A stretch of DNA of 40,287 bases. Source: a virus. Numbering within the stretch: position 1 is the first letter of the stretch; every line of letters starts with the position of its first letter. Below, one piece after another: positions 1,251 to 40,287 of the stretch. The notes below the pieces were generated by a model. It saw only the letters and a program-made list of their open reading frames with translations. It was not told where the DNA came from and did no database searches. Made by a program: the position numbers and the translations under genes. The stretch covers positions 1-40,287 of the IMG/VR virus record IMGVR_UViG_3300042922_000583. One strand, given 5' to 3'.

Positions 1251-1333
1251 TTAGACACAGTCATCGGACGATGCCTATTGATAACTGGGACATAGGGCTC
1301 CGAGCCTACCGGCAGGATTTCCGCGCGCTGCGC

Positions 1334-1370
1334 TTGCGCTCCGCGGGACCTCCCCCTATCGTTATCCATA
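1334..1370 (+). promoter_or_regulatory. Predicted repressor-controlled promoter downstream of int
   Basis: A -35 box TTGCGC (1334-1339), a 17-bp spacer and a -10 box TATCGT (1357-1362) are followed after 7 nt by ATG at 1370. This is the same -10 to start spacing seen at most other leaderless starts in this genome. The operator 1361-1378 covers the end of the -10 box and the start point, so repressor binding should block it. The transcript would run from about 1370 to the terminator at 1513-1549. Confidence 0.55.
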
Positions 1371-1378
1371 TGGATAAC
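1361..1378. promoter_or_regulatory. Operator O-A, perfect 18-bp palindrome
   Basis: GTTATCCATATGGATAAC is a perfect palindrome. It matches three sites in the immunity region (39532-39549, 39557-39574, 39600-39617) with the pattern GTTATCC-N4-GGATAAC. On the circle it is about 1.9 kb from the nearest of them. It contains ATG GAT AAC with the ATG at bases 10-12, the same place as the start codons in two of the immunity operators. It is probably bound by one or both HTH regulators. Confidence 0.7.
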
Positions 1379-1556
1379 CCGATGGACCCAGGCCGGTGGG
1401 GCGAGGTGGCAGCCAGAAGATGACCGGCCCAGACAACGGCGTCTGGGCGTAGACCAAAACGGCAAGCCGCAGCACCCGCACCACCAGGACGACGACGTCC
1501 CCAACAACGAACGACGCCCCCACCGCTGAGAATGCGCGGTGGGGGCGTCTCGTTCT
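1370..1556 (+). ncRNA. Candidate repressor-controlled small RNA or leader transcript
   Basis: The stretch 1251-1586 has no convincing gene but has a promoter (1334-1362), an operator (1361-1378) and a strong intrinsic terminator (1513-1549), which define a transcript of about 180 nt. Its 5' end could encode a 17-residue peptide beginning MDNPMDPG (1370-1423), followed by a 10-residue ORF in an ATGA overlap (1420). A perfect 8-bp hairpin sits at 1427-1434/1441-1448. It could be a regulatory RNA, a peptide gene, or the remains of a lost gene. The arrangement is seen in the sequence; the function is inference. Confidence 0.4.
1513..1549 (+). terminator. Intrinsic terminator
   Basis: A perfect 14-bp stem, GACGCCCCCACCGC (1513-1526) with its complement at 1536-1549, has a 9-nt loop and is followed by TCGTTCT. 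It closes the int and small-RNA transcripts and insulates the next gene, whose -10 box starts at 1574. Confidence 0.75.
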
Positions 1557-5559: not shown

Positions 5560-7400
5560 CAGAGTGCTCGATTCTGCGCGGCCAGGATCAGAGGCGGCGC
5601 GTCGGAGGAACGGGTGTTGGTGGTCGTGATTCCAGCCGCCCACAGAGCCCGGCCGACCTGGAATGACGCCATGGGTTCGGCGCGAGTGGAGTAACCGGTG
5701 TCGCCGGGCTGGTATATCTGCCCACTGGTGTTGCGGGCCTGCATTGCGGTCACCCGATCAAGGTGGAGCGGCGCCCAGATCTGAGCCTTCACACTGGAAA
5801 GCTGGTCCATTCCCAGGATGTGAGCGAGAACGTCCAGCTGCCCAAACACGAGCGGGCGGTCCCCCCAGTCCGACACCTCCGGGTAGTAGATGCCGCCCAC
5901 AGGTGCGCCCGCGCTGCGCTGGTAGACAGTGCCGCCGGGAGCCGCGTAGGGCGGGCTTCCGAACGTGACGTCGATGAGGGAGCGGTAGATGAGTGGCCCG
6001 TTGAAGAGGCAAGCCCGCGGCACCTTCCTCCCGGCCTTTGCGAACAGCAGGCCGGCCGACCAGATGTCTCCGACCGACGCGATGTAGTCCGGATGGATCA
6101 CATCATGGTTGGTGACGGTGCCGTCGTCGTTCACGTTCGATCCGACGCCGATGATGTCCACGACGCGGGTGCCGTTCACGATCGTCGCGAGCGCTGAGTC
6201 CGCAGGGCGCGCAGATGCGGCAACGCACATCTCCACGAGCTTTGCCATCCACCGATCGCTATTCGCGTGATCGGGCGACATCACGAGCGCGAGCGCGAGA
6301 ATGTCCGTGTTCCACGCGATCGTTTCGAACATCGAATCACCCGGCGTGATCACCTGAGCCCCGCGCTTGAAGTACGGCACTTGCCAGCGAAGGAATCGGT
6401 TCGCTTCCCACTCGACCATCGCGCGGACGTAGCCCTGCTTCGTGGTGTCCAAATCGGCCCACGTCATCCAAGCGGCATGCCCGGCGATGTATGCCCACGC
6501 CGCCGCCTGCCAGGACGGTTCCGTGTTGAAGTTCGACCAGGGGGCCTCATGCCCGCCCCAGCCATCCGCCTCCCCGGCAGTCGCGCGGTGGTGGTAAGCG
6601 AGCGACGATGTCAGCCGCGCGCAGGTCGCGCGGGCGTCGGCCTCGGACACTCCGGTGGAGGCCGCGTTGTAGGACCCCGATGCGAGCAGGGCCGCGATCC
6701 CGTACGCTCCCTCCGCCACCGGTCGCACCTCCGCCTCCACCTTCCCCGTACCGGGGAGCGTGAGGAAGGGCTGCGCGACTTGACTGCTGAAAGCCCCGGG
6801 ATACCAGACGTTGAGCAGGTACTTGACGACGCCGCTGCTGATCGAAACGAGGGAGTCTCGGACCGCAGTAGGGGTGGTCGCGATCGCGAGGTCAGCACCG
6901 GCCGGCGTAATCGCCTTGCGCCAGTAGTCGGCAGTGGGCGGCGCTAGCTGCCCCGTCTGCTGGTCGAACAATGCGAGAGAGTCACCGTTGATGGTGATCG
7001 CGATGTACGGCGAGTCGGGCACTTCGACTGTTGGAGGACCCGACATCTTCGCGCGCACCCATTCCGCCATCCGGGCAGTGGGCAGACCGTCCGGGCCAGC
7101 CTCAGGCCAAATGCGATTCCCATCCGCGTCCGCCATCGTCCAGACGGGTCCGCCGGCTGGTGTGTCATACGGCACAGTGCCGACGAGGCCACGATCTGCG
7201 ACCTCGCCATCGACCGCGTCGGAGGCTGCTGCCGCAATGGTCGGGTCGTCCGCCAGGGCGGCTACGACGAGGGGCTCCACCGACCCCGCAATGGCCGTCT
7301 TTACCTCGGTCGAGTCGGCGAGGGCGCTGCGGGCTTCGGGGGTGTTCGCGAGGAACCGGGCGTCCGCGCCTTCCTTGCTGTAGATGTCGGCGGCCATCAT
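5559..7400 (-). CDS. Tail spike with putative alpha/alpha-toroid polysaccharide-degrading domain
   Basis: A 613-residue protein. Residues 1-120 are Ala-rich and resemble a tail-attachment region. From about 150 onward it consists of helix pairs with Trp/Tyr/His-rich ends (WGGHEAPWSN, GDSMFETIAWNTDIL, TNHDVIHPDYIAS, GGIYYPEVSDWGDRP). This is the look of an (alpha/alpha) toroid as in chondroitin/hyaluronate- and heparinase-type lyases. The NH pair at TVTNHD and a nearby Tyr are candidate catalytic residues. I infer a capsule- or wall-glycan-degrading spike. It starts in an ATGA overlap and lies between the lysis genes and the LamG-like tip protein. Alternative: a non-enzymatic glycan-binding toroid. 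Confidence 0.55.
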   Translation of the reverse strand: MMAADIYSKEGADARFLANTPEARSALADSTEVKTAIAGSVEPLVVAALADDPTIAAAASDAVDGEVADRGLVGTVPYDTPAGGPVWTMADADGNRIWPEAGPDGLPTARMAEWVRAKMSGPPTVEVPDSPYIAITINGDSLALFDQQTGQLAPPTADYWRKAITPAGADLAIATTPTAVRDSLVSISSGVVKYLLNVWYPGAFSSQVAQPFLTLPGTGKVEAEVRPVAEGAYGIAALLASGSYNAASTGVSEADARATCARLTSSLAYHHRATAGEADGWGGHEAPWSNFNTEPSWQAAAWAYIAGHAAWMTWADLDTTKQGYVRAMVEWEANRFLRWQVPYFKRGAQVITPGDSMFETIAWNTDILALALVMSPDHANSDRWMAKLVEMCVAASARPADSALATIVNGTRVVDIIGVGSNVNDDGTVTNHDVIHPDYIASVGDIWSAGLLFAKAGRKVPRACLFNGPLIYRSLIDVTFGSPPYAAPGGTVYQRSAGAPVGGIYYPEVSDWGDRPLVFGQLDVLAHILGMDQLSSVKAQIWAPLHLDRVTAMQARNTSGQIYQPGDTGYSTRAEPMASFQVGRALWAAGITTTNTRSSDAPPLILAAQNRAL

Positions 7401-38157: not shown

Positions 38158-38427
38158 TCAGGCGTTGAGGCGGCGGAGCCGAACCTCCCGACGTGCTTCG
38201 TGTGCGCGGCTCTCCGCGGTGATCTCCGCGTCGATGCGGGCGCACTCCGCGTCCAGTTCCGGGGGTCCGAACCACACGTCCCGGTGGAACGCACCGAACG
38301 ACCAGAACAGGGTCAGGACCGACACGGTCATCAGGATGAGGAGGGTCCAGGAGCGGGTGCCGTCCCACGCGGTGACCGTGCAGATGATGAGGATCAGGAA
38401 CGACACCCACCGCACGAGCGCGGTCAC
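38158..38427 (-). CDS. Small membrane protein (89 aa)
   Basis: An 89-residue protein with two hydrophobic segments (about 5-22 and 28-45: WVSFLILIICTVTAW, LLILMTVSVLTLFWSFGAFH). An Arg/Glu-rich helical tail follows. The start is GTG 38427, in a GTGA overlap with the antirepressor. It could be a sensor or exclusion protein; not known. Confidence 0.6.
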   Translation of the reverse strand: MTALVRWVSFLILIICTVTAWDGTRSWTLLILMTVSVLTLFWSFGAFHRDVWFGPPELDAECARIDAEITAESRAHEARREVRLRRLNA

Positions 38428-39179
38428 GATGCGACCTCCACGGCGGTCAGCACGCCGAGGCGCACGCGGAGCCGTTCGATGCCCCTGAGTGTCACGCGGA
38501 CCTGCGGCGGGTCGATGACGAGTTCGCCGGTCGCGGGGTGGTGGTGGGACTGTGGGCGCTCCGCGAGGTGGCCGGAGTCGACGCGGCCGGCGTAAGCCCG
38601 CCACTTCCCGTCACTCCCCCGGAAGATCCAGTTGAGCGCTTCGAGCTGCGCGAACAGGCGCTGCGGGCCGGTCGTGACGCCGGCGCGGGCCAGCATCTTC
38701 GCGGCGTCAGCCACGGAGTAGTCGCCGTCGGCGGACGCGATCTCGTCCCACGCTTCCGCGCGCGGGGTGAGTTCCCGGATCTGGGTGTCGCGGCGCTCGA
38801 GGAGTTCCTGCGCCTGCAGGACCGCGCGGGCCATCAGCAGTTCGGGGGTCTCCGGGACGGCGTAGGCGCCGGTGCGAAGGATGGAGGGGATGACTTCGTG
38901 GGTGATCCAGCGGCGGAACTCCCGGGCTCTGTCGCTGCGGGACCGCATCACGGCGGAGTGCAGTCCGGGCTCGGAGACGACAGTGACTTCCTGCATCCCG
39001 CCAGGGGTGCTCACAATGTGAGTCCCCCGCTCGTCCTCATCGAGCAGCCGCGTCATGTTGGAGGTGCGGTCGTACTCGAGCGCCGCGGCGACGTCGGAGG
39101 CCACGAACCAGGGGTCGCCGTCGATGATGACGACGCGGACGCCATGCGTCCCGAAGTCGAACCGCTCGAGGGCGCTCAT
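38424..39179 (-). CDS. Phage antirepressor, BRO-N plus KilAC
   Basis: A 251-residue protein. Residues 1 to about 100 form a BRO-N domain (WFVASDVAAALEYDRTSNMT, then GLHSAVMRSRSDRAREFRRW). Residues about 130-250 form a KilAC/ANT-type C-terminus (YSVADAAKMLARAGVTTGPQ, QLEALNWIFRGSDGKWRAY). Such proteins inactivate a prophage repressor or act in lytic regulation. It is the third gene of the leftward early operon, with a mini-gene and the Cro-like gene before it, so it would be made soon after derepression. ATGA overlap at start. Confidence 0.85.
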   Translation of the reverse strand: MSALERFDFGTHGVRVVIIDGDPWFVASDVAAALEYDRTSNMTRLLDEDERGTHIVSTPGGMQEVTVVSEPGLHSAVMRSRSDRAREFRRWITHEVIPSILRTGAYAVPETPELLMARAVLQAQELLERRDTQIRELTPRAEAWDEIASADGDYSVADAAKMLARAGVTTGPQRLFAQLEALNWIFRGSDGKWRAYAGRVDSGHLAERPQSHHHPATGELVIDPPQVRVTLRGIERLRVRLGVLTAVEVAS

Positions 39180-39307
39180 GCTGCGCGCTCCGTGCGCTGC
39201 TCGAAGTGCTCGTTGCCGACGCCGGAGGCCGCGCGCTTCGCGTCCTGCTCCTCGACGGCGTCGCGGATGATGATGGCGGCTGCAGTCAGCCGCTCGACGG
39301 GCGACAT
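39176..39307 (-). CDS. Mini-gene between Cro and antirepressor (43 aa)
   Basis: A 43-residue helical ORF, MSPVERLTAAAIIIRDAVEE then DAKRAASGVGNEHFEQRTER. It starts in a TAATG overlap with the Cro-like gene and ends in an ATGA overlap with the antirepressor. The function is not known; it could be a modulator in the switch. Confidence 0.6.
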   Translation of the reverse strand: MSPVERLTAAAIIIRDAVEEQDAKRAASGVGNEHFEQRTERAA

Positions 39308-39540
39308 TACGCCGCCGCCTCGGGGTCATCGGGGAGGAATTCCCCGGGAGTCTTGCCCGTCGCTCTCGCGATTCTGTTCAGCTCGGAGACGTTGAACGGA
39401 GTGACGCCCTTGAGCTTTCTGTCGAGTGTCGCGTAGGGCACCGAGGCGGCCTTCGCGATGGCGTTGTGCGACTCTCCCGAGTCGTCGATCGCCTTCTTGA
39501 CGAGCTCCGCCACTCTGGTGTCGAAGTGTGCGTTATCCAT
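39307..39540 (-). CDS. Cro-like HTH regulator, first gene of the early operon
   Basis: A 77-residue helix-turn-helix protein: DTRVAELVKKAIDDSGESHN, then AIAKAASVPYATLDRKLKGV as HTH, and a short tail. Transcribed away from the repressor gene from a shared control region, it is Cro-like by place. The start ATG 39540 is chosen because TAGCGT ends 7 nt upstream (leaderless); an in-frame ATG three codons earlier (39549) has no signal. The start lies inside operator 39532-39549. Confidence 0.75.
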   Translation of the reverse strand: MDNAHFDTRVAELVKKAIDDSGESHNAIAKAASVPYATLDRKLKGVTPFNVSELNRIARATGKTPGEFLPDDPEAAA

Positions 39541-39549
39541 ACGGAGCAC
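39532..39549. promoter_or_regulatory. Operator O-B, covers the start codon of the Cro-like gene
   Basis: GTTATCCATACGGAGCAC matches GTTATCC-N4-GGATAAC with the left arm intact and the right arm partly changed. Read on the minus strand, the ATG of the Cro-like gene occupies bases 10-12 of the site, followed by GATAAC. Confidence 0.6.
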
Positions 39550-39576
39550 GCTAGCTGTTATCCGTTCGGATCACAA
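39548..39576 (-). promoter_or_regulatory. Leftward early promoter
   Basis: On the minus strand -35 TTGTGA (39576-39571), a 17-bp spacer and -10 TAGCGT (39553-39548) lie 7 nt from ATG 39540. Operator O-C fills the spacer and O-B overlaps the start, so the promoter should be repressible. Confidence 0.65.
39557..39574. promoter_or_regulatory. Operator O-C, in the spacer of the early promoter
   Basis: GTTATCCGTTCGGATCAC matches the operator pattern with one mismatch in the right arm (GGATCAC for GGATAAC). It lies between the -35 and -10 boxes of the leftward promoter and holds no start codon. Confidence 0.6.
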
Positions 39577-39595
39577 CCTCCGTTTCTCGATCGCG

Positions 39596-39601
39596 TAAAG
39601 T
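39596..39601 (+). promoter_or_regulatory. -10 box TAAAGT of the rightward repressor promoter
   Basis: TAAAGT ends 7 nt before GTG 39609. No clear -35 box is visible. Operator O-D overlaps its last two bases and the start, which would allow autoregulation. Confidence 0.5.
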
Positions 39602-39617
39602 TATCCGCGTGGATAAC
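39600..39617. promoter_or_regulatory. Operator O-D, covers the start codon of the repressor gene
   Basis: GTTATCCGCGTGGATAAC has both 7-bp arms intact. The repressor GTG is at bases 10-12, the same place as the starts in O-A and O-B, followed by GATAAC. Confidence 0.65.
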
Positions 39618-39854
39618 GACAAGACGCCCGTAGACGACTACACCCGGGCCGTCGCCCGCATACTCACAGACGCCAAGAAGCGGAAGGGGGTCAGCTTCGA
39701 CACCCTCGCCGCCGATACCGGACTCGGCCGCGCGACGGTCGTGCGACTCCTCGCCGGCGAGCGCCACATCAACCTGATGTACCTCCGGCTGCTATGCGAC
39801 GCGCTCGACATCGAGGCACGCACCGTCCTCGACGAGGCGGGCGAAGACGACTGA
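39609..39854 (+). CDS. HTH repressor candidate
   Basis: An 81-residue protein, VDDYTRAVARILTDAKKRKG at the start, then HTH FDTLAADTGLGRATVVRLLA and NLMYLRLLCDALDIEARTVL. It is in the slot of the immunity repressor, divergent from the Cro-like gene and upstream of the integrase, the usual arrangement for coexpression in lysogeny. It lacks any cleavage domain, so induction would need another input such as the antirepressor. The leaderless GTG 39609 is supported by TAAAGT 7 nt upstream. Which regulator is the repressor and which is Cro is inferred from position. Confidence 0.7.
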   Translation: MDNDKTPVDDYTRAVARILTDAKKRKGVSFDTLAADTGLGRATVVRLLAGERHINLMYLRLLCDALDIEARTVLDEAGEDD

Positions 39855-39916: not shown

Positions 39917-39955
39917 CTAGCTTTCCCCTTTATTCGAATCTATGTTCGAAGCTAG
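39917..39955. promoter_or_regulatory. AT-rich inverted-repeat element upstream of int, possible attP
   Basis: CTAGCTT (39917-39923) and AAGCTAG (39949-39955) are inverted copies around a core with two TTCGAA sites (39933-39938, 39945-39950). The region 39910-39955 is much richer in A and T than its surroundings. attP sites of serine integrases are about 50 bp with imperfect inverted arms and often adjoin int, so this is a candidate; it may instead be the int promoter or an operator. The core crossover dinucleotide cannot be assigned. Confidence 0.4.
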
Positions 39956-39979: not shown

Positions 39980-40287
39980 GTGAATCACCTGACAGCCACA
40001 CCGCGGCCCGCACGGCGCCGCGGTGTCGCGATGATCCGCGTCTCCAAAGAGCGCGAGGGGATGATCAGCCCCGAGAACCAGAGGTACGCGATCCAGCAGT
40101 ACGCCGACCGCTCCAACATCGACGTCATCGAGTGGATCGAGGGCATCGACGAATCCGGATCCCGGAAGACGTCCGCCTGGTGGCCGCGCCTCGACCGCGG
40201 CATCGAACAGATCGAGTCGCGCAACGCTGACGTCCTGCTCGTCTGGCGCATCGACCGCACCGCGCGCAACCGACTGAAGTGGGCGAT
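39980..40287 (+). CDS. int: Large serine integrase, N-terminal part (continues at position 1)
   Basis: GTG 39980 is preceded by AGGAG (39970-39974). The first 102 codons lie here. The catalytic domain includes IRVSKEREG, with the nucleophile S22, SPENQRYAIQQYADRS, and the LLVWRIDRTARNRLKW region of the family. At position 40287 the frame continues into position 128. A full-length integrase requires the circle to be closed. Confidence 0.95.
   Translation, partial: MNHLTATPRPARRRGVAMIRVSKEREGMISPENQRYAIQQYADRSNIDVIEWIEGIDESGSRKTSAWWPRLDRGIEQIESRNADVLLVWRIDRTARNRLKWA
40161..40287. repeat. Terminal direct repeat (assembly closure), copy 2
   Basis: Identical to bases 1-127. Removing one copy restores a continuous 476-codon integrase. 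Confidence 0.95.

Follow-up and report, generated by a model that had tools for sequence, protein, structure and literature searches.

In a 40,287-nt stretch of phage DNA, hereafter the window (an entire circularly permuted IMG/VR phage record, with bases 1-127 repeated at its end), we identified an 18-bp operator-like palindrome whose axis of symmetry lies exactly at the -1/+1 junction of the start codons of two divergent regulatory genes. Judging from the sequences of the window and its relatives, this layout of operator and start codon is real, conserved and precise. We interpret the locus as the immunity switch of a temperate actinobacterial phage that would be lambda-like in plan, with leaderless promoters and operators centred on +1, and give this reading a probability of about three in four.

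The palindrome GTTATCC-N4-GGATAAC occurred four times in the window, versus an average of 0.46 expected in shuffled sequences when up to three mismatches were allowed. Two additional three-mismatch matches at 6084 and 37320 resembled noise, and the total of six was never reached in the shuffles. O-A (1361-1378, plus strand) and O-D (39600-39617, plus strand) were perfect palindromes. Bases 10-12 of O-A were the ATG at 1370 that opens a 17-codon ORF, while those of O-D were the GTG at 39609 with which the repressor-like gene (rep) begins. O-B (39532-39549, minus strand; GTGCTCCGTATGGATAAC) had two mismatches, with one half reading GTGCTCC, and its bases 10-12 were the ATG at 39540-39538 of the cro-like gene; a counterpart of O-B was present in the related loci L152, L153 and L141. 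O-C (39557-39574) had one mismatch and lay in the cro promoter (TTGTGA-17-TAGCGT), across the end of the -35 element and the greater part of the 17-nt spacer, with its centre 25 bp from that of O-B. Pairs of the O-B/O-C type with a spacing of 25-26 bp were also found in L152, L153, L141 and prophage G001. The first-pass annotation had described four copies, a start codon at bases 10-12 in three of them and the fourth in the early promoter spacer, all of which held, with the addition that the O-B start is on the minus strand. Its description of these start codons as those of genes held for O-B and O-D, which mark the starts of the divergent HTH genes, but O-A opens only the 17-codon ORF and no recognised gene. 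As far as sequence goes, both divergent promoters share the operator (O-B, O-C and O-D), as in a rep/cro immunity switch. The window held only four symmetric sites, unlike a stoperator system of the L5 type with its many asymmetric repressor sites genome-wide.

The cro-like gene (39307-39540, minus strand) encodes a 77-aa protein that begins with MDNAHFDTRV and matched Pfam BetR/HTH_26 and PHROG 4583. The rep gene (39609-39854, plus strand) encodes an 81-aa protein that matched Pfam HTH_26/HTH_3. On these matches and the AF2 models of both proteins, the two form the divergent pair of small HTH regulators expected of a temperate-phage rep/cro switch. The models had HTH folds like those of lambda, P22 and C proteins, with matches to restriction-modification controller proteins, lambda CI and, for Cro, P22 c2; the best structural match of Rep was 2b5a, a restriction-modification C protein (TM 0.79-0.80). 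The pair was also associated with a lytic early gene and an integrase, as such a switch would be. Since the minus-strand HTH gene is followed by an antirepressor gene with BRO-N and KilAC domains (38424-39179, minus strand) and the plus-strand one by the 5' part of a serine integrase gene (39980-40287, plus strand, continuing across the record ends to 1250), the former was taken as the Cro-like early gene and the latter as the likely repressor. With the annotated immunity repressor of Propionibacterium phage Anatole, Rep shared ~41% identity, and the rep, cro and antirepressor genes of Anatole are arranged in this divergent order too. Because Rep consists of an HTH domain alone and has no cleavage domain, induction probably proceeds via the antirepressor. 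Just upstream of the leadered integrase gene we noted a LexA-like box at 39934-39949 (TCGAATCTATGTTCGA) with one mismatch to TCGAAC-N4-GTTCGA; two-mismatch matches to this pattern occurred at chance level.

The promoters of the locus had the signature of leaderless transcription. The predicted cro promoter (39548-39576, minus strand) consists of a -35 TTGTGA (39576-39571), a 17-nt spacer and a -10 TAGCGT (39553-39548) 7 nt from the ATG. The rep promoter has a -10 box TAAAGT (39596-39601, plus strand) 7 nt before the GTG and is without a consensus -35. The third promoter (TTGCGC-17-TATCGT-7-ATG) occupies, together with the 17-codon ORF A at 1370-1423, positions 1335-1423 of the plus strand. The TANNNT box that had been reported 7 nt from each start was present at O-A, O-B and O-D. 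We then examined 39 start sites (18 cro, 19 rep and 2 ORF A) in 20 phages and prophages and found TANNNT either 6 nt (25 sites) or 7 nt (14 sites) upstream of every one, against 10 occurrences in 1443 other positions of the same upstream regions (0.7% per position). Some of these start codons were chosen by us; in named phages, 7 of 10 matched the deposited annotation. Deposited starts at L125 3897 (Anatole gp31), L148 2501 (Maja) and L151 2501 (Eileen) are probably too far upstream, where a leaderless ATG fits better. A TTG -35 at 16-18 nt was found in 18/18 cro and 2/2 ORF A promoters but in only 5/19 rep promoters. A scan with the sigma-70 consensus found no promoter, which is unsurprising for TANNNT promoters. 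In Mycobacterium tuberculosis, TANNNT is the usual form of a leaderless promoter (PMC3898074). Neither the rep nor the cro start was preceded by a Shine-Dalgarno sequence, while the adjoining integrase gene has one (AGGAG), and a TANNNT box ~7 nt before the start together with this lack is what marks an actinobacterial leaderless gene. The proposal of leaderless mRNA is supported by this geometry in all 39 starts, and the transcription itself we infer.

The genes could instead be leadered, with transcription from further upstream and translation from elsewhere (for cro, the GTG at 39549, giving VLRMDN...), so that the operator merely overlaps the 5' end of the coding sequence. That GTG is in frame and is kept in L152 and L153, but L141 is without it (GTCATCCGTATG), and the TANNNT box both lies 7 nt from the ATG and overlaps GTG 39549. 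Given also the missing Shine-Dalgarno sequences, we regard leadered genes as quite improbable.

We analyzed the position of the operators in relatives of the window, which were retrieved with two-sequence alignments and a two-operator DNA pattern. Scans with a single HTH protein gave few relatives, and a scan of viral contigs with the bare palindrome returned at least 118 stretches, nearly all unrelated. The close relatives with the same operator family were L141, L152, L153 and prophage G001; cousins with other operators were Anatole/E6, L135-L140, L156, L160, L162, a Propionibacteriaceae MAG (L133) and the Arthrobacter phages Maja, Shoya, Zucker and Eileen. With the start taken as the dyad axis, we scored the complementarity of positions 4-9, the six base pairs that lie beyond the start codon. 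At the -1/+1 axis 58.5% of the pairs were complementary, compared with 25.2% (sd 4.7%) at 80 other axes. When right halves were swapped among loci, 104.9 +/- 6.9 pairs were complementary against 137 observed, and none of 20000 swaps reached the observed value. Because related sequences share ancestry, these counts measure the strength of the pattern and not a number of independent events. By group, the -1/+1 axis ranked first of 81 axes for window-type cro plus ORF A (0.83), window-type rep (0.75) and Anatole-type cro (0.62), while the score was weaker for Anatole-type rep (0.44), Arthrobacter cro (0.54) and Arthrobacter rep (0.42). A start-codon-centred operator was therefore evident for cro and rep of the window type and for cro of the Anatole type, and weak in the other groups. 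In L141, L152 and L153 the right arms at rep were degenerate (GGAGCNN).

The operator sequences differed by group (GTTATCC, GGTAGTC, GGTTTCC and GGTTGAC types) while the register stayed; they read GTTATCC...GGATAAC, GGTAGTCAC/ATGACCACC, GGTTTCCAT/ATGAACACC and GGTTGACGT/ATGGCAACC. As read from these alignments, the feature conserved across the groups is the position of the operator and not its sequence. The cro promoter spacers of L148, L149, L150, L151 and L140, among them those of Arthrobacter phages, also contained near-perfect palindromes (e.g. AATCCCCAAACGGGGATT at about -20); conservation of the spacer operator is thus no weaker than that of the start operator. In L133, L192, L170 and L194 (G002 contig 58; Propionibacteriaceae MAG) several small HTH genes and divergent pairs stand close together, and several of the HTH starts in this MAG (G002 contig 58) have TANNNT 6-7 nt upstream, which may represent stacked or relic immunity regions.

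The layout might also be an ordinary by-product, since any operator on the +1 of a leaderless gene would contain its start codon without special design or selection on the register. This reading overlaps with our account and differs from it mainly in the latter's claim of a maintained register. Leaderless genes are common in actinobacteria, and repressors often sit across the transcription start. In M. tuberculosis, 26% of the genes that have a primary start site are leaderless (PMC3898074), and mycobacteriophage BPs has an operator-like site across its Prep start (PMC4557955). However, groups whose operator sequences differ keep the axis at precisely the same base position, and in Angel, a relative of BPs, the operators are off-centre from the gene starts. 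Among more distant actinobacterial prophages the leaderless form was kept but the start-centred palindrome was mostly missing, with exceptions that include the cro genes of L168 and L169, indicating that leaderless starts alone do not produce the palindrome. We therefore consider a mere by-product unlikely, though deserving of serious attention.

Since the right arm of the operator encodes codons 2 and 3, we compared the N-termini of the relatives. The codons of Cro followed the arm each time, giving DN (window, L152 and G001), DH (L153), DD (L141), TT (Anatole), NT (L138) and DT (L137). Within each phage, codon 3 of Cro (AAC, AAC, CAC and GAC in the window, L152, L153 and L141) matched the O-C half site (GTTATCC, GTTATCC, GTGATCC and GTCATCC, respectively). 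The Asp at codon 2 was GAT despite a preference of the window genes for GAC (230:70). In Rep, codons 2-3 were DN, EH, EP and EQ across the relatives, and the residues before the conserved DDYT core varied (VDNDKTPVDDYT, MEHEVDDYT, MEPEVDDYT and MEQGMDDYT). Met-Asp-Asn, which had been expected at each start, did occur in the window-type proteins but was no rule among the relatives, where the register recurred and the arm spelled other residues. In L141 (9700-9910) the cro frame appears to be one base out of step with its homologues at a GGGAAAA run, so this copy either contains a sequencing error or is a broken gene. In the AlphaFold model of Rep, residues 1-4 had a pLDDT <50 and the first helix began at residue 10, so the constraint from the DNA seems to be taken up by a flexible N-terminal arm. 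The first helix of the Cro model begins at residue 3, so the coupling may matter more in Cro. That repressor strength and N-terminus cannot evolve separately was overstated, since the N-terminus of Rep varies and its predicted disordered arm makes the protein side permissive.

These comparisons also bear on whether the start palindromes are coding or RNA features, such as a conserved N-terminal peptide or an mRNA hairpin, instead of DNA operators. Although Met-Asp-Asn recurs in window-type proteins, the N-termini differ among relatives while the symmetry stays, O-C is a copy of the element in noncoding DNA, and the first four residues of Rep are disordered in the model. A hairpin was ruled out as the cause, because a leaderless RNA carries one arm only. 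We find a coding or RNA origin hardly credible.

The preferred reading, an immunity switch with operators centred on +1, would work as follows. The cro-like and rep genes diverge from a region with three operators, and RNA polymerase would recognise TANNNT and initiate transcription at the start codon's first base. The 18-bp operator spans -9 to +9, so that a bound HTH dimer would cover the transcription start while the right half serves as codons 1-3. Dimers of Rep or Cro on O-B, at the cro +1, and on O-C, in the cro promoter spacer 25 bp away, could form a double lock on the strong lytic promoter. On the rep +1, O-D would allow the HTH proteins to shut rep, by autoregulation or Cro repression, and O-A would bring the promoter beside attP into the same regulon. 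That Rep and/or Cro bind, and in which direction they regulate, we infer, like leaderless transcription, from this arrangement. Activation of rep from O-C, as in lambda, was also considered. The centre of O-C is at -43.5 from the rep start, which we take to be near the position of OR2 at PRM. In the window this would fit, but the corresponding distance in L141, L152 and L153 is 113-136 bp and thus not conserved.

O-A is weaker evidence for operators that contain the starts of the genes they control, since it serves a mini-ORF. ORF A encodes MDNPMDPGRWGEVAARR followed by a stop, and G001 carries a 20-codon counterpart that shares its operator, promoter and end. Window positions 1267-1536 aligned to the end of the G001 prophage, in the order of a segment resembling the ychF 5' end, a promoter with one or more operators and a short ORF ending in ARR and a stop; in G001 a second operator lies 25 bp upstream of the O-A counterpart, the spacing of the cro pair. 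This alignment and the paired operators in G001 support the view that O-A marks a genuine third promoter, followed by a mini-ORF. The leaderless mini-ORF is conserved beside attP, at 1370-1423 (17 codons) and at L131 1906-1968 (20 codons), both running MDN...ARR-stop. The predicted O-A transcript had a more stable fold than shuffled sequences (z -4.5), to which a strong terminator-like hairpin near 1515-1545 contributed much, and an Rfam search of this transcript gave only sub-threshold microRNA matches, which we read as chance.

The probable attP core (1267-1315, minus strand) was identified by its likeness to the 5' end of ychF and by alignment to the G001 junction, where YchF was confirmed by Pfam. 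It lies downstream of the integrase gene and not within the repressor gene, as it would in integration-dependent immunity of the BPs type. The attP-like stretch imitates the promoter -10 and the first nine codons of ychF (MSQLSIGIV), and prophage G001 (L131 1800-1860) sits at the 5' end of ychF. In the G001 lysogen the phage operator pair is ~43-85 bp upstream of ychF. YchF inhibits translation of leaderless mRNA in Escherichia coli (PMC8138138), and a pneumococcal prophage adjoining ychF alters its expression (PMC6375853). It is a long shot that the phage repressor tunes YchF and thereby how the leaderless switch genes of the phage itself are translated; if true, such a feedback would connect the integration site with leaderless translation in the host and with the lysis-lysogeny decision.

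If our reading of the switch is right, one 18-bp element would be RNA start, repressor site and first three codons at once, and a change of immunity specificity would be written into the N-terminus of the regulators. The layout would provide a sequence rule for locating operators and correct start codons in the large, mostly unmapped set of actinobacterial temperate phages. As a natural case of regulatory and coding DNA forced onto the same bases, it would make the trade-off between regulatory and protein evolution over the same nucleotides testable.

The layout had been proposed as a distinct switch design. In the open-access literature we found no phage switch described with start-codon-containing operators, but leaderless repressor and cro genes are already known from lambda and PY54, so we regard the locus as a variant and not as a new class of switch. 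Rhodobacter acuR is a leaderless autoregulated repressor gene and operon with an inverted-repeat operator on its promoter (PMC3017554); AcuR belongs to the TetR family, however, and the operator is described as overlapping the promoter upstream of the ATG and not as centred there. The controller (C) proteins of restriction-modification systems are small HTH proteins that regulate their own genes, which often are leaderless (PMC4824078). C.BclI and C.AhdI are comparable through the match of the Rep model to 2b5a, but C systems have paired C-boxes upstream of the start, and no endonuclease or methyltransferase gene was seen among the searched neighbours, which were the antirepressor and the integrase. 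BPs has one operator between the -35 and -10 of PR, as O-C is here, and another site overlapping the Prep transcription start (PMC4557955), but its operators consist of two 12-bp half sites. In immB of PY54, both the cI and cro mRNAs are leaderless by RACE (PMC4488713), but the repressor gene is preceded by a single 16-18 bp operator, OR3, at a distance of up to 40 bp from the cro promoter. The lambda cI mRNA is likewise leaderless, as cited in passages of PMC3017554 and PMC4488713. The likeness to lambda OR lies in the divergent HTH genes with three operators between them, two on the lytic promoter ~25 bp apart and one at the repressor promoter; lambda cro has a leader, however, whereas here Rep is without a cleavage domain and an antirepressor is encoded. 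To our knowledge, lambda operators contain no start codons. A counterpart in the placement of the start was the Anatole-type region of Propionibacterium phages Anatole, E1 and E6. It differs in its cro operator sequence (GGTAGTC...) and has a tyrosine or other integrase arrangement, but it shares with the window a homologous rep, the order of cro and antirepressor, the leaderless signature and a start codon at bases 10-12 of the palindrome.
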